Below are positions 7,707 through 23,182 of a stretch of 25,115 nucleotides of DNA, piece after piece. The notes beneath the pieces were generated by a model. That model was not told the origin of the DNA, did not search any database, and saw nothing but the letters and a program-made list of their open reading frames with translations. The number at the start of each line of letters is the position of its first letter. Position 1 is the stretch's first letter. The translations under genes were made by a program, and so were the position numbers. The stretch is from positions 1 to 25,115 of IMG/VR virus record IMGVR_UViG_3300032235_000339; one strand, written 5' to 3'. The DNA comes from a virus.

Positions 7707-7717
7707 TAGGGGCGACT

Positions 7718-8466: not shown

Positions 8467-8471
8467 CGTAA

Positions 8472-8500: not shown

Positions 8501-8525
8501 TGCGCCAGACTAGGAGTTCACGGAC

Positions 8526-8717: not shown

Positions 8718-8764
8718 TTCGCTGATCGTCGCAGGGCTGTCCTGTCGCAGCTAACGGGTGAGAC

Positions 8765-9931
8765 GTGCCGCGCAATCAACACGACATTGACCCGGCCCGC
8801 GATGCCGAAATATATGCTGCCTATGTAGAGGCGGGACATAGCGGGCGGGCTTTGGCCAAGACGGGCCGCTATGGCGGCAAAATGGGCATCCTGTCAGCAG
8901 TGCGGCGTCACAAGCAGCGCCAAGGCGAGGCTTATGGGGCTGGCGGCATTGGGCAAGGTGCGGAACGCGACGGTCATAGCCCCTACATCATCAAGGGCGT
9001 TTCAACCTATTTTGATGCAGACGGCAATCAACGCGCCCAATGGGTGAAAACCCGGCTAGATGATGAACAGCGGCAAGAGGCGATCAGGGCAGCGGCTGAG
9101 GCGCTAGCCGAAAACATACCGCCAGCGGAACCCGTCACGCCACCGACTGCAACGCTGGCCGATCTGCTTAATCTCTATGTTTTCACCGATTACCATGTCG
9201 GGATGCTGGCGTGGCACCGCGAGGGCGGGCAGGATTGGGATTTGGCAATTGCAGAACGGCTGATTACCAACGCCTATCGCCATATGATCGACAATGCGCC
9301 AGCGGCCAAGGTTGGCATTGTCTGCCAGCTTGGCGATTGGTTCCATTATGATTCATTCAAGCCGCTAACGCCTGCAAGCGGGCATTTGCTGGACGCTGAC
9401 AGCCGGTTTCCCAAGATGATTGAAGCTGGCGTTCGCATTCTGCGGCGGATCGTCGGCATGGCGCTGGAACGGCACGAACAAGTGATCGTGCTACATGCTG
9501 AGGGCAATCATGACGAAGCAAGCAGCGTTTGGCTTCGCGTCATGTTCAAGGCGCTGTTCGAGAATGAGCCTCGCGTTACGGTGGAGGATTCCCCGCTGCC
9601 GTTTTATGCCTATCAGCATGGCAACGTGATGCTGGCGTTCCATCATGGCCACAAAGTCAAAATGGACGGGCTGCCGGCGCTGTTCGCCAGCCAGTTCCGC
9701 GAGATGTGGGGCAGCACCAAAATGGCCTATGGCCACAGCGGCCACTATCATCACGAAGTGGTCAAGGAATTTTCCGGCATCAAATGGACGCAACATCCAA
9801 CGCTTGCAGCCCGCGATGCCTATGCTGCACGCGGTGGCTATCATGCGGAACGGGCAGCCTATGCAATCACCTATCACGCCAAATATGGCCAAGTTTCCAC
9901 ACTGACCGTCAAGCCGGAAATGTTTGAGTGA
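8765..9931 (+). CDS. Calcineurin-like metallophosphoesterase with N-terminal HTH-like region
   Basis: 388 aa from GTG. The full metal-binding set of the calcineurin-like phosphoesterase fold is present in order: D-x-H at 142-144 (TDYHVGM), GD at 190-191, GNHD at 247-250, H in FHHGH (292-296) and GHxH in GHSGHYHH (323-330). Such enzymes use two metal ions to cleave phosphodiesters; Mre11/SbcD nucleases and other phosphatases belong here. Residues about 10-50 look like a helix-turn-helix, and residues 78-115 (GVSTYFDADG, AQWVKT) are a linker found in phage homologues. Its natural substrate is unknown. It is an apparent nucleic-acid enzyme in a late gene block between two membrane proteins. Confidence 0.85.
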   Translation: MPRNQHDIDPARDAEIYAAYVEAGHSGRALAKTGRYGGKMGILSAVRRHKQRQGEAYGAGGIGQGAERDGHSPYIIKGVSTYFDADGNQRAQWVKTRLDDEQRQEAIRAAAEALAENIPPAEPVTPPTATLADLLNLYVFTDYHVGMLAWHREGGQDWDLAIAERLITNAYRHMIDNAPAAKVGIVCQLGDWFHYDSFKPLTPASGHLLDADSRFPKMIEAGVRILRRIVGMALERHEQVIVLHAEGNHDEASSVWLRVMFKALFENEPRVTVEDSPLPFYAYQHGNVMLAFHHGHKVKMDGLPALFASQFREMWGSTKMAYGHSGHYHHEVVKEFSGIKWTQHPTLAARDAYAARGGYHAERAAYAITYHAKYGQVSTLTVKPEMFE

Positions 9932-10200
9932 GCGTTGCGCGCATCCCTTGGGAGGCGCTGAAACCCGACGCCTTTGCCGATCATGCCGATGATGTGGCGC
10001 TGATTTATGCCGATAAGTTTGCCAGTGAGGCAGCCAAAGAGGCCGCATGGATGGCTGCCGTTATGGCCCGGCATGGAAACCCACCAGAAACCATGATACA
10101 AGTGGTGCTTGTTAGGGCATTGCGCCTGGCGGCTTTGGAGTTGGAAGTGGCATCATGTTCGATCCACTCTGGCACTGGGCCATCAATTACGGACGACTGA
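9928..10200 (+). CDS. Hypothetical protein
   Basis: 90 aa, not recognised. The GTG start overlaps the phosphoesterase stop as GTGA, so it is probably translationally coupled. It is mostly helical and Ala-rich (FASEAAKEAAWMAAVMARHG). There is no signal peptide, no membrane segment and no clear motif. It ends 3 bp before the lysin gene. The tail (residues about 75-90, SCSIHSGTGPSITDD) looks disordered. It could be a partner of the phosphoesterase or an accessory lysis protein; neither is supported by more than position. Confidence 0.6.
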   Translation: MSVARIPWEALKPDAFADHADDVALIYADKFASEAAKEAAWMAAVMARHGNPPETMIQVVLVRALRLAALELEVASCSIHSGTGPSITDD

Positions 10201-10203
10201 CCG

Positions 10204-10584
10204 ATGTGGACGTGGGATCAAAGCGCCGGAACACTTTCGCGCAATGGCGCGGTTGTTTCGCGTGGCTATTCCGGCAAAGGCGCGGGCAAAAATAACCCGG
10301 CGTTGCAGGGCATGGCTGGCATTGGGCCGCTGCCACGCGGGCGCTATCGGATCGGCACGCCGCGCACGTCTGCCCGCACTGGCCCGTTCGCAATGGACTT
10401 GTTCCCGGTGGATGCCACGCCGGGCGATACGCGCCATGATGCCACCGGGCGCAGCGCATTTCAGATTCACGGCGATAGCGTCAAAGCGCCCGGCACCGCA
10501 TCAAGCGGCTGCATCATCCTGCCGCGCACCGTGCGGGAAATGATCTGGCGCAGCGGCGACCATGTGATTGAGGTGGTCGAATGA
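10204..10584 (+). CDS. Peptidoglycan-active L,D-transpeptidase-fold lysin (DUF2778/Tlde1-like)
   Basis: 126 aa. The N-terminus (TWDQSAGTLSRNG, then GYSGKGAGKNNPAL) and the GPLPRGRYRIG block (41-51) are characteristic of DUF2778/Tlde1-like proteins. The catalytic pair of the YkuD-type fold is visible: His89 in FQIHGDS and Cys103 in SSGCIILPR. Relatives cleave or exchange peptide bonds in peptidoglycan; Tlde1 is a type VI secretion toxin. Here it lies directly before holin and spanin genes and no lysozyme-type gene is present in the window, so it is the best endolysin candidate. There is no signal peptide, so it would need a holin to reach the cell wall. It overlaps the holin start as ATGA. Confidence 0.8.
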   Translation: MWTWDQSAGTLSRNGAVVSRGYSGKGAGKNNPALQGMAGIGPLPRGRYRIGTPRTSARTGPFAMDLFPVDATPGDTRHDATGRSAFQIHGDSVKAPGTASSGCIILPRTVREMIWRSGDHVIEVVE

Positions 10585-10784
10585 TTGAGTGGTTCAAATC
10601 CCGCTTGCATGAGCGCAGCACCTGGGCCGGCATTGTCGCCATTGCGCTTGCAATCTCGCTGCTTGTCATCCCGGTTATCATGCCCGCAGACGCTGCCGCG
10701 CTGGCAAGCCAGAACGTGCAATGGCTGATCACGGCGTTGTTCGTCGGCGGGCTGGGCGGCGTTGTCTGGCATCGGAAAATCTAA
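10581..10784 (+). CDS. Holin (two transmembrane segments)
   Basis: 67 aa. Two hydrophobic segments at about 15-34 (TWAGIVAIALAISLLVIPVI) and 47-63 (WLITALFVGGLGGVVWH) are separated by a short polar turn (PADAAALASQN). The termini are basic (KSRLHERS and HRKI). It overlaps the lysin as ATGA and precedes the i-spanin by 3 bp, the canonical place for a class II-type holin that releases a cytoplasmic lysin. Family membership cannot be fixed from sequence alone, but size, topology and context are typical. A second, 63-aa membrane protein at 8526-8717 may act with or against it. Confidence 0.8.
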   Translation: MIEWFKSRLHERSTWAGIVAIALAISLLVIPVIMPADAAALASQNVQWLITALFVGGLGGVVWHRKI

Positions 10785-10787
10785 GCC

Positions 10788-11162
10788 ATGTTCGTGCCAG
10801 CCTGGGCCTTGCGGATCGCGCTATATGTCGGCGGCCTGCTGCTGATCGGCGTGGCCTATTTGTGGGCCTATGGGCGCGGCGTTGATGCAGAGCGCAGCAA
10901 GTGGCAGGCGAGGCAAGCCTTGGCGGCAGAGTTGCAACGGCAGCGTGAGGTAACTTTGCAGGCGCAAGTTGACGCTGCCGGCGTGGCGCTGTCAGAAGCG
11001 CAGGCGCGTATTTCTAACGGAGCGGGCAAAGCACAAACCATAACGAGGACATATTATGTTGCGAACCCTAGCAGCAATGTTGCTTGTCTTGATGATGGCC
11101 GGGTGCAGCACATCTCGCAAAGTGACGCCGCCGCCATTGGCAATCCCGCAACCGCCAAGTGA
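10788..11162 (+). CDS. i-spanin (Rz-like inner-membrane subunit)
   Basis: 124 aa. One N-terminal membrane anchor (about residues 5-28, ALRIALYVGGLLLIGVAYLW) is followed by a charged, helical periplasmic part (RSKWQARQALAAELQRQREV) suited to a coiled coil, and a less ordered C-terminus. With a lipoprotein encoded in another frame from 11056, it forms the Rz/Rz1-type spanin complex, which fuses inner and outer membranes in the last step of lysis of Gram-negative hosts. The presence of a spanin pair is therefore direct support for a Gram-negative host. It lies 3 bp after the holin. Confidence 0.8.
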   Translation: MFVPAWALRIALYVGGLLLIGVAYLWAYGRGVDAERSKWQARQALAAELQRQREVTLQAQVDAAGVALSEAQARISNGAGKAQTITRTYYVANPSSNVACLDDGRVQHISQSDAAAIGNPATAK

Positions 11163-11301
11163 CGCTTTGCAGCCTTGCGCCATCCCGGCACTGCTTGGCG
11201 GATCGGCGGAAGCGGTGGAATTGGCGCTGATCGAACGCGGTGCGGAAATTGCCCGCTGTGAGGCCAAGCGGCGGGCGCTTGTGCAGGGCTGGCCGAAGTG
11301 A
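11056..11301 (+). CDS. o-spanin (Rz1-like outer-membrane lipoprotein)
   Basis: 81 aa. A short lipoprotein signal peptide (MLRTLAAMLLVLMMAGC) ends in the lipobox M-A-G-C with the lipidated Cys at residue 17. A Pro-rich segment follows (TPPPLAIPQPPSD), typical of Rz1-type proteins. The gene starts inside the i-spanin gene in a different frame, overlaps it by 107 bp and extends 139 bp beyond its stop, i.e. the overlapped spanin architecture. A GAGG about 10 nt before the ATG serves as ribosome binding site. It is longer than classical Rz1 (about 60 aa), with an additional Cys-containing helical C-terminus (residues about 45-81). Confidence 0.85.
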   Translation: MLRTLAAMLLVLMMAGCSTSRKVTPPPLAIPQPPSDALQPCAIPALLGGSAEAVELALIERGAEIARCEAKRRALVQGWPK

Positions 11302-11310
11302 GGTGATGAC

Positions 11311-11592
11311 ATGGCGAAAGACCCAAGATTAAAGGCGGTGGGCGTGGAAGGCTACAACAAGCCAAAGCGCACACCGACCCATCCGACGAAAAGCCATGTG
11401 GTCGTTGCCAAGGAAGGCGATGAAATAAAGACGATCCGCTTCGGCCAGCAAGGCGTAAAGGGATCGCCGCCGCGCGAAGGCGAAAGCAAGGCCGACAAGG
11501 CAAGGCGCGCTGCCTTCAAGGCGCGCCACGCTGAAAACATCGCCAAGGGCAAGATGTCGGCTGCCTATTGGTCAAACAAGGTAAAATGGTGA
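11311..11592 (+). CDS. Conserved small basic phage protein
   Basis: 93 aa, strongly basic. It resembles a family common in alphaproteobacterial phages and uncharacterised (DUF6321-like; the number is from memory). Recognisable blocks are GYNKPKRTPTHP (14-25), SHVVVAKEGD (28-37), IKTIRFGQQGVKGS (39-52) and FKARHAENIAKGKMSAAYW (69-87). The RFGQQGV block and the Lys/Arg-rich C-terminus suggest nucleic-acid or capsid binding, but no function is established as far as I know. It follows the o-spanin by 9 bp with a GGTG ribosome binding site. The next small gene begins on the last base of its stop. Confidence 0.8.
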   Translation: MAKDPRLKAVGVEGYNKPKRTPTHPTKSHVVVAKEGDEIKTIRFGQQGVKGSPPREGESKADKARRAAFKARHAENIAKGKMSAAYWSNKVKW

Positions 11593-11738
11593 TGCCACTC
11601 AAGATGGGATATAGCGCCAAGAGCGTAAGCGCCAACATCCGCAGGGAAGTTGCGGCAGGCAAGCCACAAAAGCAGGCTGTTGCCATTGCCTTGTCGGTTG
11701 CCCGCAAAGCTAAGGCGAAGGCGAAGAAAAAGGGCTAA
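11592..11738 (+). CDS. 48-aa basic protein
   Basis: MPLKMGYSAK begins an ORF of 48 codons plus TAA, starting on the last base of the preceding stop (TGATG). The segment GKPQKQAVAIALSVARKAK (about 23-41) is a familiar pattern in very short phage proteins (resembling the C-terminus of DUF6496-type proteins) usually found near the previous gene. The Lys-rich tail (KAKAKAKKKG) suggests nucleic-acid contact. It is the last gene of the rightward late block; leftward genes begin converging 4 bp later. Function unknown. Confidence 0.7.
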   Translation: MPLKMGYSAKSVSANIRREVAAGKPQKQAVAIALSVARKAKAKAKKKG

Positions 11739-11782
11739 TTATTAAACGGCTTGTGCGGCGTTAGCCATCGGTCAGGCTCCTA

Positions 11783-11880
11783 TCAATCGAAGCGCGGATC
11801 GCCGGTAGGCATCATGCCGCGCACAAAACTCTCGCGCTGCGCCTTACAAGGTCGCGCACCCGCTGTTCAAGATCATCCAT
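11783..11880 (-). pseudogene. Possible frameshifted small gene (MDDLEQRV...)
   Basis: On the minus strand an ATG (11880-11878) with an AGGGAAG about 5 nt upstream opens MDDLEQRVRDLVRRSARVL and stops at 11812 after 22 codons. Another frame, one base back, continues as ESFVRGMMPTGDPRFD and stops at 11783. Joined by a single -1 shift near 11841-11844 the product would be about 32 aa and look coherent. This is either a broken gene, a sequencing error or chance. It overlaps the end of the preceding leftward gene by 8 bp, as expected for a real operon member. Confidence 0.35.
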
Positions 11881-12139
11881 TGCTGCTTCCCTTCACATCG
11901 TTCGCGCGTTGTTGCAGCCAGTCGGCGGCGCGGTCGTGTCGGTTCGCCTGCAACGACCCGCCCATGTTTTCCCATTCCTGCGCCTCGTCCCGCAAAGCCT
12001 CCGCAGTCAGTTCAAGCGTGGCGGCCATTGCAGCGCGCGCCTTTTCTTCATAGCCGCAACCGTTGCCGTCCATGTCCATGAGCAATTGCGCCACGCGTTC
12101 CACGTCATCATCCTGCATCGCGGCCTCCTGCGCGCTCAT
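11873..12139 (-). CDS. Hypothetical early protein
   Basis: 88 aa from ATG at 12139, which overlaps the preceding gene's stop as ATGA and has an AGGAG 8 nt upstream. An alternative start at 12118 (MQDDDVERVAQLLMD, 81 aa) is preceded by AGGAGG at a 5-nt spacing and lies inside a 25-bp sequence that is duplicated at the start of the neighbouring gene. That makes 12118 a serious alternative. The product is acidic and helical (EEKARAAMAATLELTAEALRDE, shortened here), with no recognised domain. Part of the run of small leftward genes. Confidence 0.65.
   Translation of the reverse strand: MSAQEAAMQDDDVERVAQLLMDMDGNGCGYEEKARAAMAATLELTAEALRDEAQEWENMGGSLQANRHDRAADWLQQRANDVKGSSNG
12105..12129 (-). repeat. 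25-bp direct repeat, copy 1 (translation initiation region)
   Basis: Identical over 25 bp to 12386-12410. On the minus strand it contains AGGAGG, a 5-nt spacer, ATG and the first codons Gln-Asp-Asp. Here it falls inside the first codons of the longer form of the 11873-12139 gene. Confidence 0.85.
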
Positions 12140-12399
12140 AACTGTTGCTCCTGTCCCATGATGCAGCGGAGAATATCACTGTAAGCCGCGCGCAGTGCTA
12201 CGCCGCCAAGCGGATCGTTTGCGTTGTCAATCTGCTTAACGCACCACTGAACGGCGGCTTTCCAAGCGTCCTTGTATTCCAGCGGTAGCGACTGAGGCGT
12301 CCGCGCCCACGCCTCATAAGCGGCCTCCCATGGCGGTTCTGCGGGGGTGATGGTGATGCCAAGAGAATTGATTAGCAGCGTTGCCTCATCATCCTGCAT
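12136..12399 (-). CDS. Hypothetical early protein
   Basis: 87 aa. The start at 12399 (MQDDEATLLINSLG) has AGGAGG with a 5-nt spacer, inside the duplicated 25-bp initiation region. It overlaps the 3' end of the upstream gene by 11 bp. The middle part (WEAAYEAWARTPQ, then YKDAWKAAVQWCVKQ, about residues 24-56) has the spacing of a short helical phage family in which Trp and Ala repeat as W..A...W. No catalytic motif. Function unknown. Confidence 0.7.
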   Translation of the reverse strand: MQDDEATLLINSLGITITPAEPPWEAAYEAWARTPQSLPLEYKDAWKAAVQWCVKQIDNANDPLGGVALRAAYSDILRCIMGQEQQL

Positions 12400-12410
12400 C
12401 GCGGCCTCCT
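12386..12410 (-). repeat. 25-bp direct repeat, copy 2 (translation initiation region)
   Basis: Same 25 bp as 12105-12129. Here it is the ribosome binding site and start of the 12136-12399 gene and also codes for the end of the upstream gene in another frame. Confidence 0.85.
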
Positions 12411-12787
12411 TGCACTGGCGGCATCAGGTTAGCGTTTGCCCGTTCGCGGCCATTGGCGCGGGCAGCCTCATAGATAGCGCGACGGTGCTTTCGCAGTGCC
12501 TCACTAAAGCGGTAGACGCTGCCCCAGCCAAAATCAAACGCCAGTTCGGTCAACGTCTTATCACCGATGTTACGATCAGCGGCGGGCAGCGTGGGCGCAG
12601 TGCCGGGCGGGCGCGGCGGATTGTTCGTGCGGCGCGGCGGCGCTTCGTCTTTGGCCATCCGCACTTCGACCGATCTAACCTGTGACAGATGCGCCCTAAT
12701 GCGCTCGTTAGCATAAATGCGAACCATGCGGCCATCAGGATAGAGATTCCAAAAGCGCCGATCATGAATGATAACTTTGGGCTTCAT
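12389..12787 (-). CDS. Hypothetical protein with HTH-like C-terminal region
   Basis: 132 aa. Residues 1-40 (KVIIHDRRFWNLYPDGRMVR, then IYANERI) resemble a small beta domain. A Pro-rich linker (about 50-65) follows. Then residues about 76-112 (KTLTELAFDFGWGSVYRFSE, then LRKHRRAIYEAARA) have the spacing of a helix-turn-helix in which a homeodomain- or phage-type HTH recognises DNA. It starts one base after the stop of the upstream gene (TGA-c-ATG) and lacks its own clear Shine-Dalgarno, so it is probably coupled. A role as early regulator is inference. Confidence 0.6.
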   Translation of the reverse strand: MKPKVIIHDRRFWNLYPDGRMVRIYANERIRAHLSQVRSVEVRMAKDEAPPRRTNNPPRPPGTAPTLPAADRNIGDKTLTELAFDFGWGSVYRFSEALRKHRRAIYEAARANGRERANANLMPPVQGGRDAG

Positions 12788-12788
12788 G

Positions 12789-13076
12789 TCACAGACTCGC
12801 AGGCTGGCGGTTGGCGGAATGCTTGATCATTGCGTTCAGCACGATTTGATTGGCTGGGCGGCGGCGGCGCTGGAAATGCCATGTGTAAATTGGCTGTCCT
12901 TCACTGGTTAGTGCGCGATGCCACATGGCGAAAATGTAGCCTTCATCATCTAGCAGCCTCACAAACCGGCCAAGATCACCGGGAATTGAATGGGTAGCAT
13001 CGCTGACAATCTTGGCGACGATGTTGCCTTCCGGCGCGTCCATCACCCAGCTTGCAACTTCCTTGGCGCTATACAT
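12789..13076 (-). CDS. Hypothetical early protein
   Basis: 95 aa from the second ATG (13076, MYSAKEVASWVMD). The first ATG (13082) is only 1-2 nt from the AGGGGG sequence, whereas the second has about 7 nt spacing. The N-terminus is helical, the centre (residues about 35-75, GDLGRFVRLLDDEGYIFAMW and TWHFQRRR) is beta-rich with several Trp. No recognised domain. It is preceded by a 21-aa membrane peptide gene and followed without gap by 12389-12787. Confidence 0.65.
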   Translation of the reverse strand: MYSAKEVASWVMDAPEGNIVAKIVSDATHSIPGDLGRFVRLLDDEGYIFAMWHRALTSEGQPIYTWHFQRRRRPANQIVLNAMIKHSANRQPASL

Positions 13077-13088
13077 TTGCATTCCCCC

Positions 13089-13154
13089 TTAGATCATTGC
13101 CAGCAAGGCAAGGCAGATAAACAGGCAGGCCATTGGCAGGGCTTCGCGGATCAT
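13089..13154 (-). CDS. 21-aa hydrophobic peptide
   Basis: MIREALPMACLFICLALLAMI followed by TAA. About 14 of 21 residues are hydrophobic and form one membrane segment after a short charged start. A GGAGAC leader 8 nt before the ATG matches that of neighbouring leftward genes, and the AGGGGG of the next gene begins right after its stop. This supports real translation rather than chance. Function unknown; membrane micropeptides of this size in phage early operons can act as superinfection or host-takeover factors, but that is only a possibility. Confidence 0.5.
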   Translation of the reverse strand: MIREALPMACLFICLALLAMI

Positions 13155-13175
13155 GGTGTGTGTCTCCGGTTGTTG

Positions 13176-13343
13176 TTAGGCAATTAAATCGGCAGCAATC
13201 GCGCCGTCGAACCAGATGTTGTTGATGGCGTCTATCGCGCCTTTGATCTGTTCACCCGCCTCAATGCGGATCGCCAGTGCCTCGTTCAATGTGGCAAGCT
13301 CGGTGGCGGTATAGATGTAATCAGTGTTGTCGTGCGTAAACAT
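13176..13343 (-). CDS. Small early protein
   Basis: 55 aa from ATG at 13343 (MFTHDNTDYIYTATELATLN). The open frame extends further upstream to 13451, but the 13343 start has a GGGAG 8 nt upstream and lies just after a strong hairpin, so the shorter form is preferred. It is acidic, helical after residue 13 and has no Cys or His motif beyond one His. Not recognised. Confidence 0.55.
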   Translation of the reverse strand: MFTHDNTDYIYTATELATLNEALAIRIEAGEQIKGAIDAINNIWFDGAIAADLIA

Positions 13344-13364
13344 GTCAGTGTCTCCCGTTGTTGT

Positions 13365-13386
13365 GGGCCGGCGCTGTGGCCGGCCC
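13365..13386 (-). promoter_or_regulatory. GC-rich hairpin before the 13343 start
   Basis: GGGCCGGC (13365-13372) pairs perfectly with GCCGGCCC (13379-13386) around a 6-nt loop. In the leftward transcript it is followed by ACAACAAC, GGGAG and the ATG; there is no U-tract, so it is not an ordinary terminator. Similar hairpin leaders precede 13581 and 18359. Confidence 0.5.
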
Positions 13387-13395
13387 GTATTGGTG

Positions 13396-13581
13396 TCAGT
13401 TAATGACGTTAAAGTTGCGAAAATACTCAGCGCGGTGATCTTCAAGCTCAACCTTAACGATGCTGTCTAAAACGCCAAACTGGCGCGTTACACCAGCGCG
13501 CTCAAGCCGGTCGGCAATGTCCCCTGCATCTTCAATCAACCATGCTTCTATTTCGGCAAAAGTGGCGACTGGTTTAGCCAT
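13396..13581 (-). CDS. Small early protein, first gene of the leftward small-gene run
   Basis: 61 aa from ATG at 13581 (MAKPVATFAEIEAWLIEDAG). The frame is open to 13656, but this ATG has a GGAG 7 nt upstream and follows a small GC hairpin, and longer starts would run into the operator/promoter region. Features: helical N-terminal half (AEIEAWLIEDAGDIADRLER), then a beta-like half ending in FNVIN. Not recognised. As the promoter-proximal gene of the leftward early block it is a candidate for a regulatory or host-interaction role. Confidence 0.6.
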   Translation of the reverse strand: MAKPVATFAEIEAWLIEDAGDIADRLERAGVTRQFGVLDSIVKVELEDHRAEYFRNFNVIN

Positions 13582-13653
13582 CTGTCGTCTCCGTCTTGTG
13601 GGGCGCTGCCCCGTTGTTGTTGAAGCCACATTGCCAACGTCCGTCCTATGCGT

Positions 13654-13673
13654 CAAGCATAAAAATATGCTTG
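13654..13673. promoter_or_regulatory. Palindromic operator in divergent control region
   Basis: CAAGCATA (13654-13661), AAAA, TATGCTTG (13666-13673): perfect 8-bp arms. It lies between divergent genes, a leftward early gene and a rightward Cro/CI-like HTH gene. On the minus strand TTGACG (13656-13651) touches one arm. On the plus strand TTGCAG (13671-13676), 17 bp before TATGGG (13694-13699), touches the other arm. A dimeric HTH repressor bound here could block both promoters. The -10-like boxes are weak, so the promoters are less certain than the dyad. Confidence 0.6.
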
Positions 13674-13705
13674 CAGCATTTTATTTTGACCCCTATGGGC
13701 AGCGC

Positions 13706-13912
13706 ATGAGCAAAATCATGACCCATGCAATGCGCGCTGCTGGCCTGAATGATGTCACGCTGGCCGCGCTAATCGGCTGTTCGCAGTCGCATATCAACCG
13801 GATTCGGAACGGTAAAATGGTGCCGCGACGGGTGATGGCCAACGCTATCGAACGCGCTTTGAGCGTTCAGGGCTTGGCCGATGAACTAACCAAAAGGGAG
13901 CAAGACGCATGA
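13706..13912 (+). CDS. Cro/CI-like HTH regulator
   Basis: 68 aa from ATG at 13706 (MSKIMTHAMRAAGLND). The frame is open far upstream (to 13460), but upstream ATGs (such as 13664) lie within the operator and have no ribosome binding site. Residues about 16-42 (DVTLAALIGCSQSHINRIRN) form a typical lambda-Cro/XRE helix-turn-helix: L/A-A-x-x-x-G-x-S-x-x-x-I-x-R. No C-terminal peptidase domain, so it is Cro-like in size. A possible -10 box ends only about 7 bp before the ATG, so the mRNA may be leaderless. It overlaps the next gene as ATGA. Confidence 0.8.
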   Translation: MSKIMTHAMRAAGLNDVTLAALIGCSQSHINRIRNGKMVPRRVMANAIERALSVQGLADELTKREQDA

Positions 13913-14361
13913 CGCTAAAAAATTGGACGCCAGAGGAAGATGCAATTCTGACCCGCATGATGCAAGCCGGTGATACCTACGCACAGGTCACAGCCGCTTT
14001 GCCGGGCCGGAATATTTCAGCGGTCAAATGCCGCGCTTACCGGCTGAATTGTAGCAATACCCGCGTTGATGGGCGCTGGTATGGCAAAGCCGACGCCACG
14101 CTGCGGCAGATGTGGTCGGATGGCGCTACCATTATGGAGATTGCGGATCGGTTGGGCGTGGCCCACACATCGGTTCGCCGCCGCATTGAGCGTATCAATC
14201 TGCCTCCGCGCAAGTCAGCGGTTCGCGCAATTGGCACCGGCTGGGCTGCCAATGATCTTGCCATTGAACGCAGCATCCGCCAAGCCACGGCGGCGTTCGA
14301 GCGCCATTATCGTGACGTAGCAGACAAGCGGCGATGGCATGTCTGGAACTATGCAGCGTAA
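13909..14361 (+). CDS. Double-HTH regulator, SANT/Myb-like plus GcrA-like
   Basis: 150 aa. Residues about 4-45 (NWTPEEDAILTRMMQAGDTY, AALPGRNISAVKCRAYRL) have the W-T-x-E-E-D start and R-x-x-x-A-V-x-x-R-x-x-x-L end of SANT/Myb-like domains in phage proteins. Residues about 60-100 (ADATLRQMWSDGATIMEIAD, RLGVAHTSVRRRIERINLP) resemble the GcrA HTH, whose host version controls cell cycle genes in alphaproteobacteria. Likely a DNA-binding regulator that acts with the preceding Cro-like protein; the ATGA overlap suggests co-translation. A rho-independent terminator follows at 14369-14396. Target sites unknown. Confidence 0.75.
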   Translation: MTLKNWTPEEDAILTRMMQAGDTYAQVTAALPGRNISAVKCRAYRLNCSNTRVDGRWYGKADATLRQMWSDGATIMEIADRLGVAHTSVRRRIERINLPPRKSAVRAIGTGWAANDLAIERSIRQATAAFERHYRDVADKRRWHVWNYAA

Positions 14362-14368
14362 TGTTTTG

Positions 14369-14396
14369 GCGGCGGGCTTAAAAACCCGCCGCTTTT
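14369..14396 (+). terminator. Rho-independent terminator of the regulator operon
   Basis: GCGGCGGG (14369-14376) pairs with CCCGCCGC (14385-14392) around an 8-nt loop, followed by TTTT (14393-14396). It ends the two-gene rightward regulator transcript. The stem also encodes the last residues of the converging VRR-NUC gene. In the leftward direction no T-tract follows, so it probably acts mainly rightward. Confidence 0.8.
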
Positions 14397-14737
14397 ATGT
14401 GCGCTTCAATCTGGCGCTTGGCATCGTCTGCACCATAGCAAACCAACACCGTCTGGCCAATCGAAGCTAGGTAAAGGTGCCAGCTTTTTTGATCTGGCGA
14501 CAAGCGCCCGCCTTGTGAGCGTTTCATCTCAATCCACAAGCCCCAGCCAGGCACGAAAAGATCGGGAACGCCACGGCTAACGCCTTCGGCTTTCAGCTTG
14601 GCCGCAGTGGCGCGGGATCGCCAGCCGCCATTCGGGATCGCAAATATGCGAACATCGCTAAACTTGCGGCGGAACCAGAACACGACTTCGCGTTGCTCTT
14701 CATGCTCTGTCGGTAGCCGTTCCGCGCGCTCCTTCAA
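14378..14737 (-). CDS. VRR-NUC domain nuclease
   Basis: 119 aa from a TTG at 14737 that overlaps the previous stop (TTGA) with AGGGAAG upstream; the frame is open to 14887 but that stretch is covered by the preceding gene. The VRR-NUC (PD-(D/E)XK) signature is visible: IPNGG near residue 34, GVSRGVPDL with Asp59, E-x-K (Glu70, Lys72) in WIEMKRSQGG, and Gln83 in LSPDQ. Phage VRR-NUC proteins act as structure-specific endonucleases, often cutting junctions or flaps and used in recombination or DNA packaging. It is the last gene of the leftward replication-recombination operon. Confidence 0.85.
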   Translation of the reverse strand: MKERAERLPTEHEEQREVVFWFRRKFSDVRIFAIPNGGWRSRATAAKLKAEGVSRGVPDLFVPGWGLWIEMKRSQGGRLSPDQKSWHLYLASIGQTVLVCYGADDAKRQIEAHIKAAGF

Positions 14738-14946
14738 AACGGCACTTCCCTTGCCTGCACATCGTATGGATCGAACGCCTTCCAATCCTGACAGGCGCTT
14801 GGCGTTCCCTGAAATTGATCCGGTGGCGTTGCGGCGTGTTTGTGGCAATGGTTTGATTCCCGGTGAAAAAAGTTGCAATCCCAGCACAGTCTAGGCCGGG
14901 CATTTTCCCAGTCAATCAGTGCGGCTGGCTTTGCGGCTTGGCTCAT
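14734..14946 (-). CDS. Small Cys/His-rich protein (zinc-binding candidate)
   Basis: 70 aa from ATG at 14946, which overlaps the PP-loop gene stop as ATGA. It contains CWDC (about 21-24), then HCHKH (33-37) and a later Cys (CQDW), an arrangement suited to one zinc site. The pattern CxxCxFF, HC, C-x-x-W recurs in small phage proteins of unknown role encoded next to nucleases. Its stop overlaps the TTG of the VRR-NUC gene, so both are probably translated together and may work together; that is inference. Confidence 0.65.
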   Translation of the reverse strand: MSQAAKPAALIDWENARPRLCWDCNFFHRESNHCHKHAATPPDQFQGTPSACQDWKAFDPYDVQAREVPF

Positions 14947-15809
14947 GGCGCTTCTCCACACCACAGGCCACATTCGGCGTCCATGTCCGGATCGTTATCA
15001 AAAGCGCCAGCAAATATGTCGCCTTGGCGCTGCACAGCATCTATAATCTCTCTATATGTTCGATCTGGCCGAAACCTCGCACCGCTAGGCTTTGACGCCA
15101 GCGCCAGCGCCTCCATGTTCGCCCACCATTGCAATGTGCCAGACTTTGTGCGCTCTACTTCCATCAGCTTTGGACGCGCTTTCAAAAAACATCCGTCACA
15201 GTTGCCTTCAAATGGCAACAGTTGCAAATCAAAGTCTTGCGCCGCCCACCACAAGCGCACGTCACGGTTTGTTGTTCCAGCCGCAAACAGCGGAAAAACA
15301 CTAATCCAAGGCTCTTTGCCTTTAGCATTTGAAGCCTCGCCGCGCTCAACACGATGTGCTTCATCAGCGCGCAAACCGACCACATTTGTCCAACGCTTGT
15401 AGCATTGCGCTTTCATATAATAGCGCATCGGATCAATCTTTAATTCCGTGGTGCAAAAGCGCGTGACGCTATTTGGTAAATAATTCTTGCGACGAATTAG
15501 CGCCTCAAACGGCTGGCCATCTCGGCTGGCGCTATTGTAGCCGACAATATTAAACCGCGCAGCCATATCCTTAGCTTTTCGATCTGCCAATTCAACCCAA
15601 ACAATCGGCACGTTCCATCTAACGCTGCACTCATGCACGAAGCGCAGCGTTTCCTCACGCTCCTTGCCTGTGTTGGCAAAGACCACATGCACATCTTCCG
15701 GCATGGTGCCGCCGTGCGCTTGCAGGATGCGCCACAGCATATAGCCGCTGGTGCGCCCACCGCTGAACGAGATCAGGGCCGGGCCTTCTATCTTAAATGG
15801 ATCACTCAT
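14943..15809 (-). CDS. PAPS reductase-like PP-loop protein (DndC/CysH superfamily)
   Basis: 288 aa from ATG at 15809, which overlaps the helicase stop as ATGA and has GGAG 9 nt upstream; an ATG at 15815 is too close to that site. The PP-loop SFSGGRTS (about 14-21), shared by adenine-nucleotide alpha hydrolases, binds and adenylates or reduces via ATP/PAPS. FANTGKE (about 45-51) is another family trait. Cysteines at about 119 (CTTELKI), 204 and 207 (CDGC) and a C-terminal CGLWC could bind a metal or Fe-S cluster, as in DndC-type sulfur-transfer proteins. Phages often carry such genes; substrates are unproven. A role in DNA or RNA sulfur modification is possible but no Dnd partners are visible. 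Confidence 0.8.
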   Translation of the reverse strand: MSDPFKIEGPALISFSGGRTSGYMLWRILQAHGGTMPEDVHVVFANTGKEREETLRFVHECSVRWNVPIVWVELADRKAKDMAARFNIVGYNSASRDGQPFEALIRRKNYLPNSVTRFCTTELKIDPMRYYMKAQCYKRWTNVVGLRADEAHRVERGEASNAKGKEPWISVFPLFAAGTTNRDVRLWWAAQDFDLQLLPFEGNCDGCFLKARPKLMEVERTKSGTLQWWANMEALALASKPSGARFRPDRTYREIIDAVQRQGDIFAGAFDNDPDMDAECGLWCGEAP

Positions 15810-17386
15810 CCCCATATTCTCCCGATGATGCGATAATATTTTCCATCGCGTTTGTATGTTATGCAGGTTGGCGGTTTGCCACCGCTTAGGATTGCCGCGA
15901 CACCATCTAGCGTCATGCTAGGCTTAAGCGCAACGCGGGCATTGCTGGCAATGATGCCAAGCGTGGCCACCGCTTTCTCCCCGGCATAACCTTCGTGCGT
16001 CACGGTCAAATATTCTTTGACGCCAGGATCGGACAGAGCGCCATAATAGGTAACTTCGAGCATATCCTTGCCGCTGGTTTTGCTGGTGTGTTTGCGCCAG
16101 CGCCATGACGTGACAGGCATTTCGGACGGCGCAAAGCCCATGATGTCATCGTGGTGCAGCCGATAGGTTTTAGGCTCTGGCGCGGGAAACTCTGAGCCAC
16201 ACGCCGGGCAGATTTTGACGCTGGGATGGCATAGCTCATCGCAAAACTCGCAGACTTTCACCGGAGCTTCACAGTCGCCTTTGCCTGCTTTGGTTGGCGG
16301 CTGCACAGCAGTAATCGGGCCGTGTGTAGCTACAACGCCGGCAAAATCCAGAACAAGGCAATCAGCCTTGCCAGGCGCAACGCGAAGCCCGCGCCCTGCC
16401 ATCTGCACATAGAGTGCCGGTGACATGGTGGGCCGCAGCATGGCGATTAGATCAATCGCCGGAAAATCGAATCCCGTTGTCAGCACTTGGGCATTGGTCA
16501 AAGCCTGAATCCGCCCAGCTTTGAAGTCGCCAATCATCCGTTCGCGTTCCGCCTTTGGCGTTGCGCCTGTCACACAATCGGCGATGATGCCGCGATCATT
16601 AAGCAGATCGGCGATGTGCTGGGAATGTTCAATTCCTGTACAAAACAGCAGCCAATGTTTACGATCTGAACCAAGTGCCATGATTTCAGCCACAACGGCG
16701 GCGTTGTTGTCGTCGGTATCAACCGCCGCCTGCAACTCACTTTCGATAAATTCGCCGCCGCGTTTGTGGACGCCATCAAGATCAAAGCGGGCCTTCGTCA
16801 CCTTGCTGCGAAGCGTGGTCAAAAATCCTTTGTAAACCAGTTCTTCAATCGTCACCGGATCAATCAGGCCATCAAATAGCGCCGGCTTGTCAGTGATAAG
16901 GCCATGCCCCAAGCGATATGGCGTGGCTGTCAGCCCGATAATACGCAACGCCGGATTGATGGCCAGCAAGGCGTTTAGTAGCGTCCTATAACCGCCTTCG
17001 TCTTTGTGGCTGACAAGGTGGCATTCGTCGATAATAACAAGATCGACATGCCCCAGCAGCGAAGCCTTTTCGCGCACCGACTGGATGCCTGCAAACGTGA
17101 TCGGCTCTCCAAGCTGGCGCTTGCCAATGCTGGCGCTGTAGATGCCCAGCGGTGCGCCAGGCCAATGTTCGCGCATTTTCGCGGCGTTCTGTTCGATCAA
17201 TTCCTTTTGATGGGTAAGCATCAGCACCCGCGTTTCAGGCCAGTTTTGCAGCCCCTCTTTGCAAAGTGTAGCTACAATGTGGCTCTTGCCCGCGCCGGTT
17301 GGCAGCACAAGGCAGGGATGGCCATCGTTTGAGCGCATCCAATCGTAAAGATCGTCAAGGGATCGCCTTTGATATTCACGAAGCAT
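15806..17386 (-). CDS. Superfamily 2 DEAD/DEAH-box helicase
   Basis: 526 aa from ATG at 17386 (MLREYQRRSLDDLYDWM), which overlaps the upstream gene by 11 bp; the frame is open to 17422. Motifs: Q-like LREYQ, Walker A PTGAGKS (29-35), DECH (120-123), TATP (153-156) and QMAGRGLR (328-335), i.e. a full SF2 core of the RAD25/UvrB-like type. A zinc ribbon with CEFC and CPAC (Cys 379, 382, 393, 396) and a DNA-binding-like C-terminal domain follow. It probably opens or remodels DNA for replication-recombination together with the adjacent Cas4-like nuclease, a pair common in alphaproteobacterial phages. Confidence 0.9.
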   Translation of the reverse strand: MLREYQRRSLDDLYDWMRSNDGHPCLVLPTGAGKSHIVATLCKEGLQNWPETRVLMLTHQKELIEQNAAKMREHWPGAPLGIYSASIGKRQLGEPITFAGIQSVREKASLLGHVDLVIIDECHLVSHKDEGGYRTLLNALLAINPALRIIGLTATPYRLGHGLITDKPALFDGLIDPVTIEELVYKGFLTTLRSKVTKARFDLDGVHKRGGEFIESELQAAVDTDDNNAAVVAEIMALGSDRKHWLLFCTGIEHSQHIADLLNDRGIIADCVTGATPKAERERMIGDFKAGRIQALTNAQVLTTGFDFPAIDLIAMLRPTMSPALYVQMAGRGLRVAPGKADCLVLDFAGVVATHGPITAVQPPTKAGKGDCEAPVKVCEFCDELCHPSVKICPACGSEFPAPEPKTYRLHHDDIMGFAPSEMPVTSWRWRKHTSKTSGKDMLEVTYYGALSDPGVKEYLTVTHEGYAGEKAVATLGIIASNARVALKPSMTLDGVAAILSGGKPPTCITYKRDGKYYRIIGRIWG

Positions 17387-18359
17387 TGAACGCACCCGCC
17401 AACGCCTGCACAGTCTCATCAAGCAAGTGGCGTGATGTCAGCCCGCCAACGCCATTCCGCAGGCGTGACTGCCCAATCAGCCAAGTGACCGACAAGCCAT
17501 CGTCGCTGCCTTCCATCTGCCACGGCACAAGGTCAGGATGAAAAACGTGGTCGTCACAGCCATCGTATTGGGCATCAGTTGGAATGCTAGTTTCCCACCG
17601 GGCGCAGTGCCAGGTGCTATCCTCTTTCGGCGTTGCGTGGGCGCATGTGCGGCAATTCACTTCCTTCGTTGGCTGTGATTTATGGCACATAGCCTTTGCG
17701 TGACACCATGAACATTGATACCATGTCGGATCGGCGCTGATAGGGGGGGGTATCCTGTCGGCCAATGCGATGGCCCGTCCTTTGGCAATGGCAGCATCCG
17801 CAACATCTTTATCGAAGCGCACCCGTTCGCAGTGCAGCCGATCATCGTCTTTGCAGACCGCCACATAAAGCGCCCGCGTCAAGCCAAGCCCGGCCATGTA
17901 AACCTGCATCTGCACGAAGTGCTGCCACTTGGACAGGCGCACACCTTTAGACGCCAAATCGTCAAATGACTTTTTGCCATGCGTCTTAAACTCAAGCAGA
18001 TGCTCCGTCTTTGGCGCTTCGGGAATGCCAACGCCAATCCCGTCAATGCTGCCGCTAACATGCGCGCCAAAATCAACGCGGTTTTGCTGGCCATGCACAG
18101 CGATGCCCACCGCTTCCAGATCGGCAATAATCGTCACTTCCTCGCTATGGCCACGGCGAAACAAGCGCAGGATGCGGCCTTCAAACTGTTCGACAACAGC
18201 CCAGCGAAATGACAGCCAAAGCCACCGATCACAATGATGGCCTAGCAGGCTTGCGCCTAGGTGCTGGCGTGGCCGTTCCCGCTTGGCAGCGTGGTGAGCA
18301 TCTATCAGGCTTGCAACGGCACTTTGATCGGCTATAATGACTTCCGGCAGCTTTGCCAT
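17376..18359 (-). CDS. Cas4/RecB-type PD-(D/E)XK exonuclease with Fe-S cysteines
   Basis: 327 aa. Nuclease core: His71 (GHSEE), Asp106 (GSIDGIG), Glu123-x-Lys125 (LLEFKTH) and Gln150 (FVQMQVYM). Cys43 with Cys216, Cys219 and Cys225 (CSWCHAKAMC) match the four-Cys [4Fe-4S] arrangement of Cas4/AddB-type exonucleases. A C-terminal extension adds another CRTC, HC and GC set (about 236-268), seen in phage homologues. It likely makes single-stranded ends for the recombination system. A run of eight G (17743-17750 on the plus strand) encodes consecutive Pro codons (IPPPIS). The start has a GGAGGAG leader and a hairpin upstream. Confidence 0.85.
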   Translation of the reverse strand: MAKLPEVIIADQSAVASLIDAHHAAKRERPRQHLGASLLGHHCDRWLWLSFRWAVVEQFEGRILRLFRRGHSEEVTIIADLEAVGIAVHGQQNRVDFGAHVSGSIDGIGVGIPEAPKTEHLLEFKTHGKKSFDDLASKGVRLSKWQHFVQMQVYMAGLGLTRALYVAVCKDDDRLHCERVRFDKDVADAAIAKGRAIALADRIPPPISADPTWYQCSWCHAKAMCHKSQPTKEVNCRTCAHATPKEDSTWHCARWETSIPTDAQYDGCDDHVFHPDLVPWQMEGSDDGLSVTWLIGQSRLRNGVGGLTSRHLLDETVQALAGAFNAS

Positions 18360-18376
18360 GTGTGTCTCCTCCCGTG

Positions 18377-18420
18377 AACAACTTGGGGCCGGCTCATCAC
18401 CGGCCCCATTTTTTGTTGTT
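18377..18420. terminator. Strong hairpin with plus-strand T-tract, inside the leftward operon
   Basis: GGGGCCGG (18385-18392) and CCGGCCCC (18400-18407) form a perfect 8-bp stem with a 7-nt loop, followed on the plus strand by ATTTTTT (18408-18414). Outer arms AACAAC (18377-18382) and GTTGTT (18415-18420) can extend it. In orientation it is a rho-independent terminator for rightward transcripts, although all genes nearby are leftward. For leftward mRNA it forms a leader hairpin before the Cas4-like gene. Confidence 0.6.
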
Positions 18421-18925
18421 ACTTTGCCCAGGGCGGCTTTGCGCTAGCCGCAGCCGGTGCGGCTGCAGCCTTGGCAGCAGACGGCGCAGGAAGCCCGCCG
18501 CCAGCCAGAGCGCGATAACCGCCCACATCGTTGCGGGCTTGGCTGTAGCCGTGCGCTACATCATCCGGTGATGGATGCTTGATCTTGACCTTGATCTGCA
18601 ACTGCCCGCCGACAAGCTGGTCGCTATCTTCAAGGCGTGGCAGGCCAATGGCGCGCATGATTTCGCCAAGCTGTTGCCGGCCAATTTCCTCTGCCTTGGC
18701 AGACTGGTTGCGGATGTTGATCGCCGCAAATACCACCCGGCCTTGATGAGTTGGCCCGGTAATGTCGAGACGCAAATCAATCTTCGTGCCGGTGCCTGAC
18801 TTAGTTTGCCCGACTTCCGCCTTGGCGATCATGGCCGAATAAAGACCTTCCGGCAGCAGTTCATATTCGCCGCTGTTGCCGGTGGGCAGATCGTCGGCGT
18901 TAAAGCTTTCTCCGAGTGTAGCCAT
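18419..18925 (-). CDS. DUF669-like protein, candidate ssDNA-binding protein
   Basis: 168 aa from ATG at 18925 (MATLGESFNADDLPTG), with AAGGA 9 nt upstream; the frame is open to 19036 but this start is the typical one. The blocks FNADDLPTGNSGEYELLPEG, GLYSAMIAKAEV and GRVVFAAINIRN match DUF669 proteins. These are encoded beside phage recombinases and exonucleases and are thought to bind ssDNA. The C-terminus is Ala/Pro-rich and disordered (about 130-168), ending in KPPWAK. In this operon it lies between a Sak4-like ATPase and the Cas4-like exonuclease, which fits an annealing-type recombination module. Binding activity is inferred. Confidence 0.85.
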   Translation of the reverse strand: MATLGESFNADDLPTGNSGEYELLPEGLYSAMIAKAEVGQTKSGTGTKIDLRLDITGPTHQGRVVFAAINIRNQSAKAEEIGRQQLGEIMRAIGLPRLEDSDQLVGGQLQIKVKIKHPSPDDVAHGYSQARNDVGGYRALAGGGLPAPSAAKAAAAPAAASAKPPWAK

Positions 18926-18929
18926 TGTA

Positions 18930-19310
18930 TCAATCCTTTCGTGTGATGGTAAAGCTAGGGCGGCCGGGTGTGGATGTGATGGCATCCAACAGCGGTTCAG
19001 TGATAGTTGCAGCGGCAGCTTTCCATGCCGTCGCATTGATTTCCGGCTTCCACCGGAAAAGGCTGGGCAGATGATCGGCTAGGCCATGCTCTGCCGCCAA
19101 GGCTTGCAGCTTGTCGCTATCCACCTTGCGATTGATGCGGCCAACCACTTTTACCGCGTAACCGTCGCAGTCAAAGTTGCTGGTGCCATCCAAATTGGTT
19201 GGCAAAGCCAATTCAAACGCCATCGCATCTTCAAGATCACGGCGGGTTTTGATGGCGGCTTCTTCGATTGCCTTGGCGTTTAGCCACTGCTGATAAATTG
19301 GCACGGTCAT
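18930..19310 (-). CDS. Conserved phage protein of unknown function
   Basis: 126 aa from ATG at 19310 (MTVPIYQQWLNAKAIEEAA), which has GGAGG about 6 nt upstream and overlaps the preceding small gene as ATGA. The N-terminal helix (IEEAAIKTRRDLEDAMAFEL) followed by a beta segment (YAVKVVGRINRKVDSDKLQA) and a short FRWKPEIN motif is common in proteins next to DUF669 and Cas4-like genes in phages, similar to DUF7173 (number from memory). It could be a modulator of the recombination proteins. No catalytic residues recognised. Confidence 0.7.
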   Translation of the reverse strand: MTVPIYQQWLNAKAIEEAAIKTRRDLEDAMAFELALPTNLDGTSNFDCDGYAVKVVGRINRKVDSDKLQALAAEHGLADHLPSLFRWKPEINATAWKAAAATITEPLLDAITSTPGRPSFTITRKD

Positions 19311-19476: not shown

Positions 19477-19821
19477 TTACACCGCCTTCCGGTAACGTGG
19501 TTGCAGTCTTGCATGAGATTTAGTGGATTCGCTTCTGCCTAGACCGCATATTTCAATGTCGCCCGCTTTTAGTGCGCTGCGAATGCGGCTGCCAATAGCG
19601 CCACCCCATGCGTTATGATGATGCGGATTTCCGCAGCCGCCAAGCAAAGCAAAGATTCGGATTTCTTCGCCAATAAACGTGCGGCCATGCGGCACATTCT
19701 GCAAAAACACGTCAATTTGAGCATATGCAGACTGTTTCCATTCATCATCTGCGGCGTCCATGACCCGCGCAATGCCCGCATCTTTTGCGGCAATGCTGGC
19801 AAACATATCAACTTGCATCAT
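19477..19821 (-). CDS. Conserved small replication-operon protein (winged-helix-like)
   Basis: 114 aa. The start at 19821 overlaps the upstream stop as ATGA. The pattern NPHHHNAWGGAIGSRIRSAL (about 65-84), followed by GDIEICGLGRS and a C-terminal HARLQPRYRK, recurs in short phage proteins near replisome genes: a Pro/His turn, N-A-W-G, a helix, then a basic tail. It may be a winged helix. Function is not established as far as I know. N-terminal residues 1-45 are acidic and helical. It follows the Sak4-like ATPase directly. Confidence 0.7.
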   Translation of the reverse strand: MMQVDMFASIAAKDAGIARVMDAADDEWKQSAYAQIDVFLQNVPHGRTFIGEEIRIFALLGGCGNPHHHNAWGGAIGSRIRSALKAGDIEICGLGRSESTKSHARLQPRYRKAV

Positions 19822-20495
19822 GACACACTCCCAATTTTAGCAATGATCGCGCCAAGGTCTGGCGCTTCCCACTGGGCCAGCCTGCCGGAACGATCCTTAG
19901 CCTGCCAAAGCCCATCACTGTCGGTAAGCAGCGCACGATGGGCGTTGCCATCGGCATCGCGTTCAACACGCAGCGCCATGACGAGGTCGAAAAAGTAGGG
20001 CAACCCCTGTGTCAGCGACTTACCGGGCATGGAGGCATTGTAAAGAATGCGGCCCATTTCATCCTGTGACTTTTCCAGCTTGGCAGACATATAGACATGC
20101 TTGCCCGGCAGATCGCGAAAGGCGCGGATGAGTTCGTTCATCTTTGTGGACAACTCACCGTATGCCGCGCGGCCATCCTTGTTGGCTTTGAGTTCAGCGT
20201 TCAAAACCACTTCGGCAACTTCTGACAGTGAATCAATCGCCACTGATTGAAACGCCTTGGCTTCCTCGCTGCCAGTCAGCCACGCATAGGCATCATGCAG
20301 ATCGGCAAGGCTTTTGACTTCGATATAAGGCACGTCTGCACCGGCAATTGAAAGCAAGCCGGCTTCTGCACTGATTGCCACGACATTAGGCAAAGTCGGG
20401 ATCAAGCTGGTTTTGCCAGCGCCCGCCTGTGCATATACGCACATTTTAACACCATTGGCGGATAGGCCGCCTGTCCTCTTTAGGTTGATAGCCAT
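19818..20495 (-). CDS. Sak4-like RecA-fold ATPase (AAA_24 type)
   Basis: 225 aa. Walker A GAGKTS (25-30) follows VYAQA; Walker B-like VAIDSLSE has Asp87. Other conserved blocks are the AAFGELSTKM-like AAYGELSTKMNELIRAFRDL (about 109-128) and VYMSAKLEKSQD (133-144). These match the Sak4/phage AAA ATPases that stimulate single-strand annealing with a phage SSB. It is the first gene of the leftward operon. With DUF669, Cas4-like nuclease and helicase it makes a complete recombination set. A hairpin (20508-20538) lies just before its GGAG ribosome binding site. Confidence 0.85.
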   Translation of the reverse strand: MAINLKRTGGLSANGVKMCVYAQAGAGKTSLIPTLPNVVAISAEAGLLSIAGADVPYIEVKSLADLHDAYAWLTGSEEAKAFQSVAIDSLSEVAEVVLNAELKANKDGRAAYGELSTKMNELIRAFRDLPGKHVYMSAKLEKSQDEMGRILYNASMPGKSLTQGLPYFFDLVMALRVERDADGNAHRALLTDSDGLWQAKDRSGRLAQWEAPDLGAIIAKIGSVS

Positions 20496-23174: not shown

Positions 23175-23182
23175 GGGGGGGG
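23174..23182 (+). repeat. G9 homopolymer
   Basis: Nine consecutive G directly at the stop codon of the DUF3310 gene and 46 bp before the small terminase gene. It is the longest homopolymer noticed in the window. The nearest equivalent is G8 at 17743-17750, flanked in both cases by TA and TAT. The length may be sequencing-sensitive. Confidence 0.8.

Follow-up and report, generated by a model that had tools for sequence, protein, structure and literature searches.

Small genes with modular hairpin leaders form a probable exchangeable array in a viral DNA fragment

The window analysed here is the whole of a 25,115-base viral fragment (IMG/VR record IMGVR_UViG_3300032235_000339, positions 1 to 25,115), and its segment at 13.09-13.69 kb is probably an exchangeable array of small phage genes, which are probably early genes. 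The array reads leftward, on the minus strand, and has two fixed boundaries: on the left a divergent helix-turn-helix (HTH) regulator of the XRE/CI-like kind (13706-13912, plus strand, start codon putative), and on the right a conserved hydrophobic open reading frame (ORF) of 21 amino acids (13089-13154). A single divergent predicted promoter stands in front of all three leaders of the array. Its putative -35 hexamer TTGACG (13651-13656, kept as TTGACGCATAG in relatives) is 17 nt from the -10 hexamer CAATGT (13628-13633), and an inverted repeat, AAGCAT-N6-ATGCTT, lies over the -35 (13655-13672) as a possible operator for the HTH repressor. The predicted transcription start, about 7 nt downstream of the -10, would place a 5-bp hairpin that we call type I, GGGGC-AGC-GCCCC (13600-13612, with AACAACAAC in front), at about +9. 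There follow the Shine-Dalgarno (SD) sequence GGAGAC of ORF A (13587-13592), ORF A itself (61 amino acids; 13396-13581), an 8-bp hairpin that we call type II, GGGCCGGC-CACAGC-GCCGGCCC, after the stop codon of ORF A (13365-13386), a second SD GGAGAC (13350-13355), ORF B (55 amino acids; 13176-13343) and the hairpin-free leader TAACAACAACCGGAGAC of the 21-residue gene (13162-13177).

Exchange of cassettes in this slot is well supported by comparison with relatives, of which eighty were retrieved via the exonuclease gene and more via neighbouring genes; L-numbers are the labels of the sequences compared with the window. When the slot was compared from the promoter TTGACGCATAG through to the 21-residue gene, 17 alleles with flanks about 95% identical were found to hold 0, 1 or 2 small ORFs out of ten families, A-J. 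The window carries A and B, L180 carries A alone, L179 carries H and G, and L178, L182 and L183 carry D and G; the slot is empty in L172, L176 and L177, and the sequence of L174 stops at the slot. Unrelated ORFs share leaders: CAACAACAACGGGGCAGCGCCCCACAAGACGGAGACGACAG stands before both A and C, and D, E, F, H, I and J all have the same hairpin leader with small changes. Moreover, phages with flanks no more alike than random sequence (48%) share ORFs at 75-97% identity, and the boundaries fall at the SD and at the stop codon or a 3' hairpin. ORF B of the window and of L128 encode the same protein from DNA that is 97% identical, with identity beginning at -16 (95%), ending at the stop codon and giving way to random flanks (48-53%); in L128 and L231 the gene for this protein has a different promoter and a leader of type I. 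ORF A (89% DNA identity to L083 and L084, with unrelated flanks) and ORF F (L005 versus L107) have equally sharp edges, with similarity continuing through the hairpin after the stop codon. Because the edges of similarity fall there, the moving unit consists of SD, ORF and stop codon, with the type II hairpin added for A and F. A junction in L184 looks like a recombination scar, ORF E there being fused at GCGCC to a type II hairpin of which the 3' half is present.

The type I hairpin, GGGGC-N3-GCCCC directly 5' of the SD, is common in viral contigs: the exact leader occurs in 37 stretches of such contigs and a looser pattern in at least 80, and the 71 ORFs that carry it there fall into 56 blastp families. 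A scan of species genomes from bacteria and archaea, about 85,000 in all, found the exact pattern in 5 stretches, which belong to only two rhizobial metagenome-assembled genomes (MAGs) holding it in multiple copies, and of 397 genomes from the order to which the Mesorhizobium MAG belongs, 2 have the looser form; given this scarcity, we take the leader to be mainly a phage feature. In 50,697 phage records, BLAST with the leader as query found no convincing match, megablast of the window region was equally unhelpful, no Rfam covariance model matched at the leaders, and the literature searched (subscription papers lay outside that search) held no description of it. The pairing of the arms is maintained. 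In the type I alignment, 96.7% of cells are paired, the unpaired ones coming from one sequence shifted by the aligner, and the covariation score was reached by 1 of 500 shuffles. Variants keep the pairing, with C-G, A-U or U-G at pair 5 and G-C or G-U at pair 1; the four outer G-C pairs are little informative because they hardly vary. When leaders were folded, the hairpin was 96% paired.

Several observations couple this hairpin to promoters. The best sigma70-like -10 ends 7-14 nt before AACGGGG in 26 of 42 non-redundant upstream regions (shuffles: mean 5.0, maximum 14). In promoter searches blind to the hairpin, hairpin and SD accompanied every copy of CTTGCGTCCCGCGCAA...CATAGT in one 50-kb contig (8/8) and every copy of GTGCTTGCANNATGGGGC in a 16-kb contig (9/9, one stem being only 4 bp), and in both contigs a G-rich hairpin lies 11-16 nt past the -10. 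Because promoter copies found in this way always precede one, the type I hairpin would sit near the 5' end of the mRNA. In several of these promoters, the -35 and -10 enclose an inverted repeat that varies by phage (e.g., ATACGGAT-AAA-ATCCGTAT), which fits a repressor operator. L167 is a dense example, with nine near-identical promoter-hairpin units in less than 5 kb (3.6-8.1 kb, reverse strand), each carrying one small ORF and an operator-like ATGGGGC..GCCCCAT repeat. Homologs of ORF B provide a second view, as 19 of them were retrieved by protein, blind to the hairpin. Ten have a leader of their own, and in every one of these the SD is preceded by a GC hairpin (four copies behind a promoter, five after a stop codon and one that could be either); the homolog in L246 has a different stem, AGGGC/GCCCT. 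The nine that are translationally coupled (GGAGTGATG overlapping the upstream gene) all lack a hairpin, these nine being closely related copies and not nine independent events.

The type II hairpin follows a stop codon, and in L083 and L107 its arms are GGGGCGGC/GCCGCCCC, a C-G to G-C exchange relative to the window. Because type I and type II stand in tandem in L084 and L230, we treat them as separate elements. A further 8-bp hairpin (9 bp counting a flanking T-A), with stem GGGGCCGG/CCGGCCCC, lies at 18384-18408 on the minus strand, reading TGGGGCCGG-TGATGAG-CCGGCCCCA with an A-tract on its 5' side. It is located after the stop codon of a single-strand DNA-binding-like gene (ssb; 18419-19036, minus strand; DUF669, phrog_2300 and phrog_6015, C terminus PPWAK), with no promoter directly before it, and ahead of the SD GGAGAC (18364-18369, context GGGAGGAGAC) of a gene assigned by domain matches to a Cas4-domain/PD-(D/E)XK exonuclease (17376-18359, minus strand). 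In 11 close sequences (alignment A3) it is 100% paired with a U-A/C-G exchange, and compensatory G-C/C-G exchange is also seen among its relatives. Distant relatives have arms that differ wholly yet pair (CCCCCGC/GCGGGGG, GACCCCGC/GCGGGGTC and GATCCCAGCCGAT/ATCGGCTGGGATC); MAFFT misaligns these distant groups in alignment A1, so that A3 gives the cleaner pair count. In the more distant relatives L035, L044 and L046, there is neither a gap between ssb and exonuclease genes nor a hairpin. This hairpin is vertically inherited and fixed at the ssb-exonuclease junction, an intercistronic stem-loop like those of the array. Among sister phages (L006, L009, L010, L012 and L015), its loop is inverted (TGATGAG versus CTCATCA) with identical arms, which may be a signature of template switching or hairpin flipping.

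These comparisons change the picture given in a preliminary description of the window, which had grouped the leaders of four leftward genes as one recurrent unit of AACAAC, GC hairpin, GGAGAC and start codon. The parts were correctly read. GGAGAC followed by ATG is present at all four minus-strand starts (13152-13167, 13341-13355, 13579-13592 and 18357-18369), these being the only 4 matches in the window; shuffles average 1.4, and 9 of 100 reach 4, so this count by itself is weak. The perfect GC hairpins reported at three of the four leaders (8, 5 and 8 bp) are exact in the sequence, and the combination of GC hairpin, GGAGA and ATG, found 3 times, averages 0.26 in 200 dinucleotide shuffles, of which one reaches 3; a stem of at least 8 bp before GGAGA and ATG occurs in none of the 200. 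On RNA folding, the leaders with 8-bp hairpins have z-scores of -3.6 and -3.5 and the 5-bp leader one of -1.3, and it is because of this last value that support for the 5-bp hairpin is comparative and not energetic. AACAAC is indeed enriched in the window (22 versus 11.2 in shuffles, with 0 of 100 matching), but at 13154 and 18420 it is in part the TAA stop of the upstream gene; at the 18359 start, AACAAC precedes the hairpin on its 5' side, with GTTGTTC filling the space from hairpin to SD. The grouping itself did not survive. The first three sites share an operon and the 18.36-kb site alone lies in a different one, so the description of units in different operons 5 kb apart held for that site alone; it is the separate junction element described above, and the supposed single class of hairpin divides into type I and type II. 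Likewise, a mobile or duplicated translation cassette, one of the proposals made for these units, agrees with the three sites at 13.1-13.6 kb (interchangeable ORFs, shared leaders and the same ORFs behind other leaders or promoters in unrelated phages) but not with the 18.36-kb site. The arrangement was looked for in related phages and found, and its arms covary.

In total, we consider it likely, although by no means certain, that the segment is a cassette array with modular leaders resembling promoter early stem-loops (PeSLs) and SAS motifs, in which hairpins protect or delimit short early mRNAs and exchange occurs at the leaders. In this model, one promoter divergent from the HTH repressor would read through 0-2 accessory ORFs into the fixed 21-residue gene. 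Each ORF would form a unit of a leader with the GGAGAC SD, the ORF and sometimes a GC hairpin after the stop codon, and in most such phages the leader would include a 5-bp GC hairpin beginning about 5-9 nt into the predicted mRNA or immediately past the previous stop codon. The hairpin may shield short mRNAs against decay from the 5' or 3' end, which would make each cassette self-sufficient. Protection of the mRNA 5' end fits because the hairpin is near the predicted 5' end, is indifferent to its loop and has no U-run; protection of the upstream mRNA, or of a new 5' end after processing, fits because hairpins also follow stop codons. The mRNA-stabilising caps suggested in the preliminary description are thus plausible, since the predicted mRNA has the first-gene hairpin at positions of about +5 to +9. 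We further posit that the repeated leader offers a short homology at which annealing recombination swaps cassettes, based on the boundaries of similarity and on the presence in the same genome of genes for the ssDNA-binding protein, the exonuclease and a Sak4-like annealing protein (19818-20495, minus strand), the last a candidate recombinase for exchange at short homologies. Three points weigh against this account. The constancy of GGGGC/GCCCC between phages is inflated by the search patterns used; cassettes without a hairpin exist (the empty alleles L172, L176 and L177, L083, L107 and most copies in Caulobacter phage C1), so the hairpin is dispensable; and predicted SD accessibility is 0.478 for the intact leader, 0.491 with the hairpin removed and 0.479 when it is shuffled.

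Could the hairpins instead belong to the gene upstream? If their main role were at the 3' end of that gene or between cistrons (as stabilisers, processing sites or weak attenuators), nearness to the SD would come from tight packing alone. Type II follows the stop codons of ORFs A, F and H and moves with them, and nearly all examined relatives with an intergenic gap have a hairpin after the ssb stop codon; however, most type I copies are behind promoters with no upstream gene, and the tandem of type II and type I in L084 and L230 makes them separate elements, so that we hold this explanation to be rather unlikely. It is improbable that GGGGC-N3-GCCCC is a DNA operator at the transcription start for a phage repressor, with the RNA hairpin incidental. 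Where several promoters linked to a repressor form an array, the palindrome does lie at about +5 to +20, but promoterless copies occur between genes (L167 at 7370, L230 and L243-L245), and the putative operators are other inverted repeats, mostly in the -35/-10 interval, that are phage specific while the hairpin stays. In addition, G-U variants keep RNA pairing and break DNA symmetry, and the window itself has three different arms. We give similarly little credence to a trans-acting RNA-binding protein or small RNA that reads the leader and switches many cassettes together, a relative of the translational-regulator binding site once proposed for these leaders. One leader is common to many genes per genome (9 in the contig of L167 and 8 in that of L126), and GGGG...CCCCAC is nearly constant in both contigs. 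Against this, loops are free in sequence and length (3-6 nt), the junction loop is inverted between sister phages, some cassettes have no hairpin, and the surroundings of the array yielded no dedicated RNA-binding gene.

At the junction hairpin, a separate question arises, because its 5' A-tract makes the opposite strand a terminator-like stem with TTTTTTG. Its likely role would be that of an intercistronic stabiliser letting ssb exceed exonuclease, or of a block to antisense transcription. That 18384-18408 is the terminator of an antisense RNA, with a plus-strand promoter inside the exonuclease gene (18311-18338) and a product of about 70 nt over the ribosome-binding site of that gene, strikes us as very improbable. 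The promoter, TTGCAA-16-TATAAT, scores 10/12 and is followed by the terminator-like stem, the A-tract is kept in three groups of relatives, and the ATT ATA codons are retained in about 19 close relatives; but the promoter is weakened in L026-L028 and unrecognisable in more distant groups in which the hairpin persists, and promoter-like sites in the region are no commoner than in shuffles (11 versus 10.7).

Four other candidates were tried and rejected. Insulation of the ribosome-binding site, or improved access to the SD, was dropped on the unchanged predicted accessibility. The promoter of an N4-type virion RNA polymerase is a hairpin with a 5-7 bp stem and a 3-nt loop, with transcription starting about 11 nt downstream of the loop centre; here, such a start would fall in or close to the SD when the leader is at its shortest, and there are sigma70-like promoters upstream. 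With lambda boxB as the comparison for loop constancy, an antitermination site of that type fails on loops that are too variable. Coding-strand intrinsic terminators would need a U-run, and the stems are followed by CCCCACAAG, GCCCACAAC and CCCCAAGTTG; the equivalent of a U-run, TTTTTTG, is found only on the opposite strand at 18384-18408.

The cassette array has parallels among known systems. PeSLs in T4-type phages are repeated units that border and shuffle small variable genes (Arbiol 2010; Comeau 2014; cited in PMC4503421). They share with our phages an early promoter and stem-loop in several copies (8 and 9 in two contigs, the window having one promoter and one hairpin) and the shuffling of small genes between related phages. 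PeSLs are promoter-terminator composites in the words of the 2014 title, whereas the hairpin described here is part of the transcript, downstream of the promoter and upstream of the SD, and has no U-tract; since there is no U-run, and since termination there would stop the cassette's own gene, type I and type II are not terminators. The window array also differs in using one promoter for several cassettes, and the phages here are not recognisably T4-type, no T4 core gene having been seen among the ORFs scanned in the 25-kb fragment.

The SAS/ESAS elements of cluster K mycobacteriophages and Microbacterium cluster EF comprise an unusually conserved, repeated motif of the SD region, about half with an upstream inverted repeat (PMC3203893, PMC7302621). 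The leaders here are similar in placing a repeated SD-region motif before genes of different families, but the 13-bp SAS consensus is GGGATAGGAGCCC and ours is CGGGAGAC(A/C). The ESAS paper reports little support for an RNA hairpin, whereas pairing is kept here, and the leaders described here show promoter coupling and cassette exchange. The Caulobacter jumbo phage C1 (MZ574429; L249, terminal repeat, 2793-17009) carries about a dozen promoters of the form TTGACAGCAT...CATGCGACAA, and after every one come a CATCACAACGGGAGAC-like leader and small ORFs. It resembles the array in its promoter-leader repeats before small ORFs and in one shared ORF family, and differs in that its copies are mostly hairpin-free and C1-type genomes are very large. 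A term search of the phiCbK genome paper found no description of these leaders. Beside the promoters in the C1 terminal repeat are operator-like GTTAACCTTAAC repeats. The cassette ORF family MALSFRVRDD... (L093, L112 and L167) has homologs in Caulobacter, Cronobacter and Erwinia jumbo phages, several of them in Caulobacter terminal repeats, a hint of a shared early function.

Stem-loops at the 5' end of Escherichia coli ompA-type mRNAs stabilise the message, and the T7 gene 10 leader is comparable. The leaders described here likewise have a short hairpin near the (predicted) mRNA 5' end and then an unpaired SD; unlike those single leaders, one leader here serves dozens of unrelated small ORFs. 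The array offers a direct test of whether short early phage mRNAs are protected by minimal 5' hairpins. The observation that the same ORF occurs behind different leaders is also a natural experiment in gene swapping, and the slot shows how phages can trade early genes ready-wired for expression. The ideas behind PeSL and SAS would extend beyond T4-type and actinobacterial phages, with a leader of about 40 bases marking dozens of unrelated small ORFs as one exchangeable pool in phages nearly unrepresented in culture. For metagenomes, the leader is a sequence handle for accessory early genes, which typically act in host takeover or counter-defence. We speculate, as a tentative possibility, that phages which are mostly uncultured and not otherwise related exchange among themselves a large, undescribed class of expression cassettes, each made up of its own promoter and operator, a hairpin at the 5' end, an SD and a small early ORF, with the leader as recombination handle; if true, a leader search would list hundreds of exchangeable host-takeover or counter-defence genes.

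Around the array, the window encodes tail genes, including a tape measure protein (TMP_2), and a leftward recombination operon containing the Sak4-like gene, a DUF7173 protein, the ssDNA-binding-like and exonuclease genes, a helicase, a PAPS-reductase-like gene and a VRR-NUC nuclease. The divergent regulatory region at 13.7-14.4 kb holds the HTH repressor-like gene and a GcrA-like gene. GcrA is a regulator of alphaproteobacteria, and because of this gene the host is likely to be an alphaproteobacterium. Elsewhere, the Rfam int-alpA RNA (RF02996, 50.6 bits) matches at 914-976 on the plus strand, in the intergenic gap just upstream of the tape measure region and far from any integrase seen. Runs of eight G (17743-17750) and nine G (23174-23182) in coding or near-coding sequence are possible slippage sites or points of assembly trouble.

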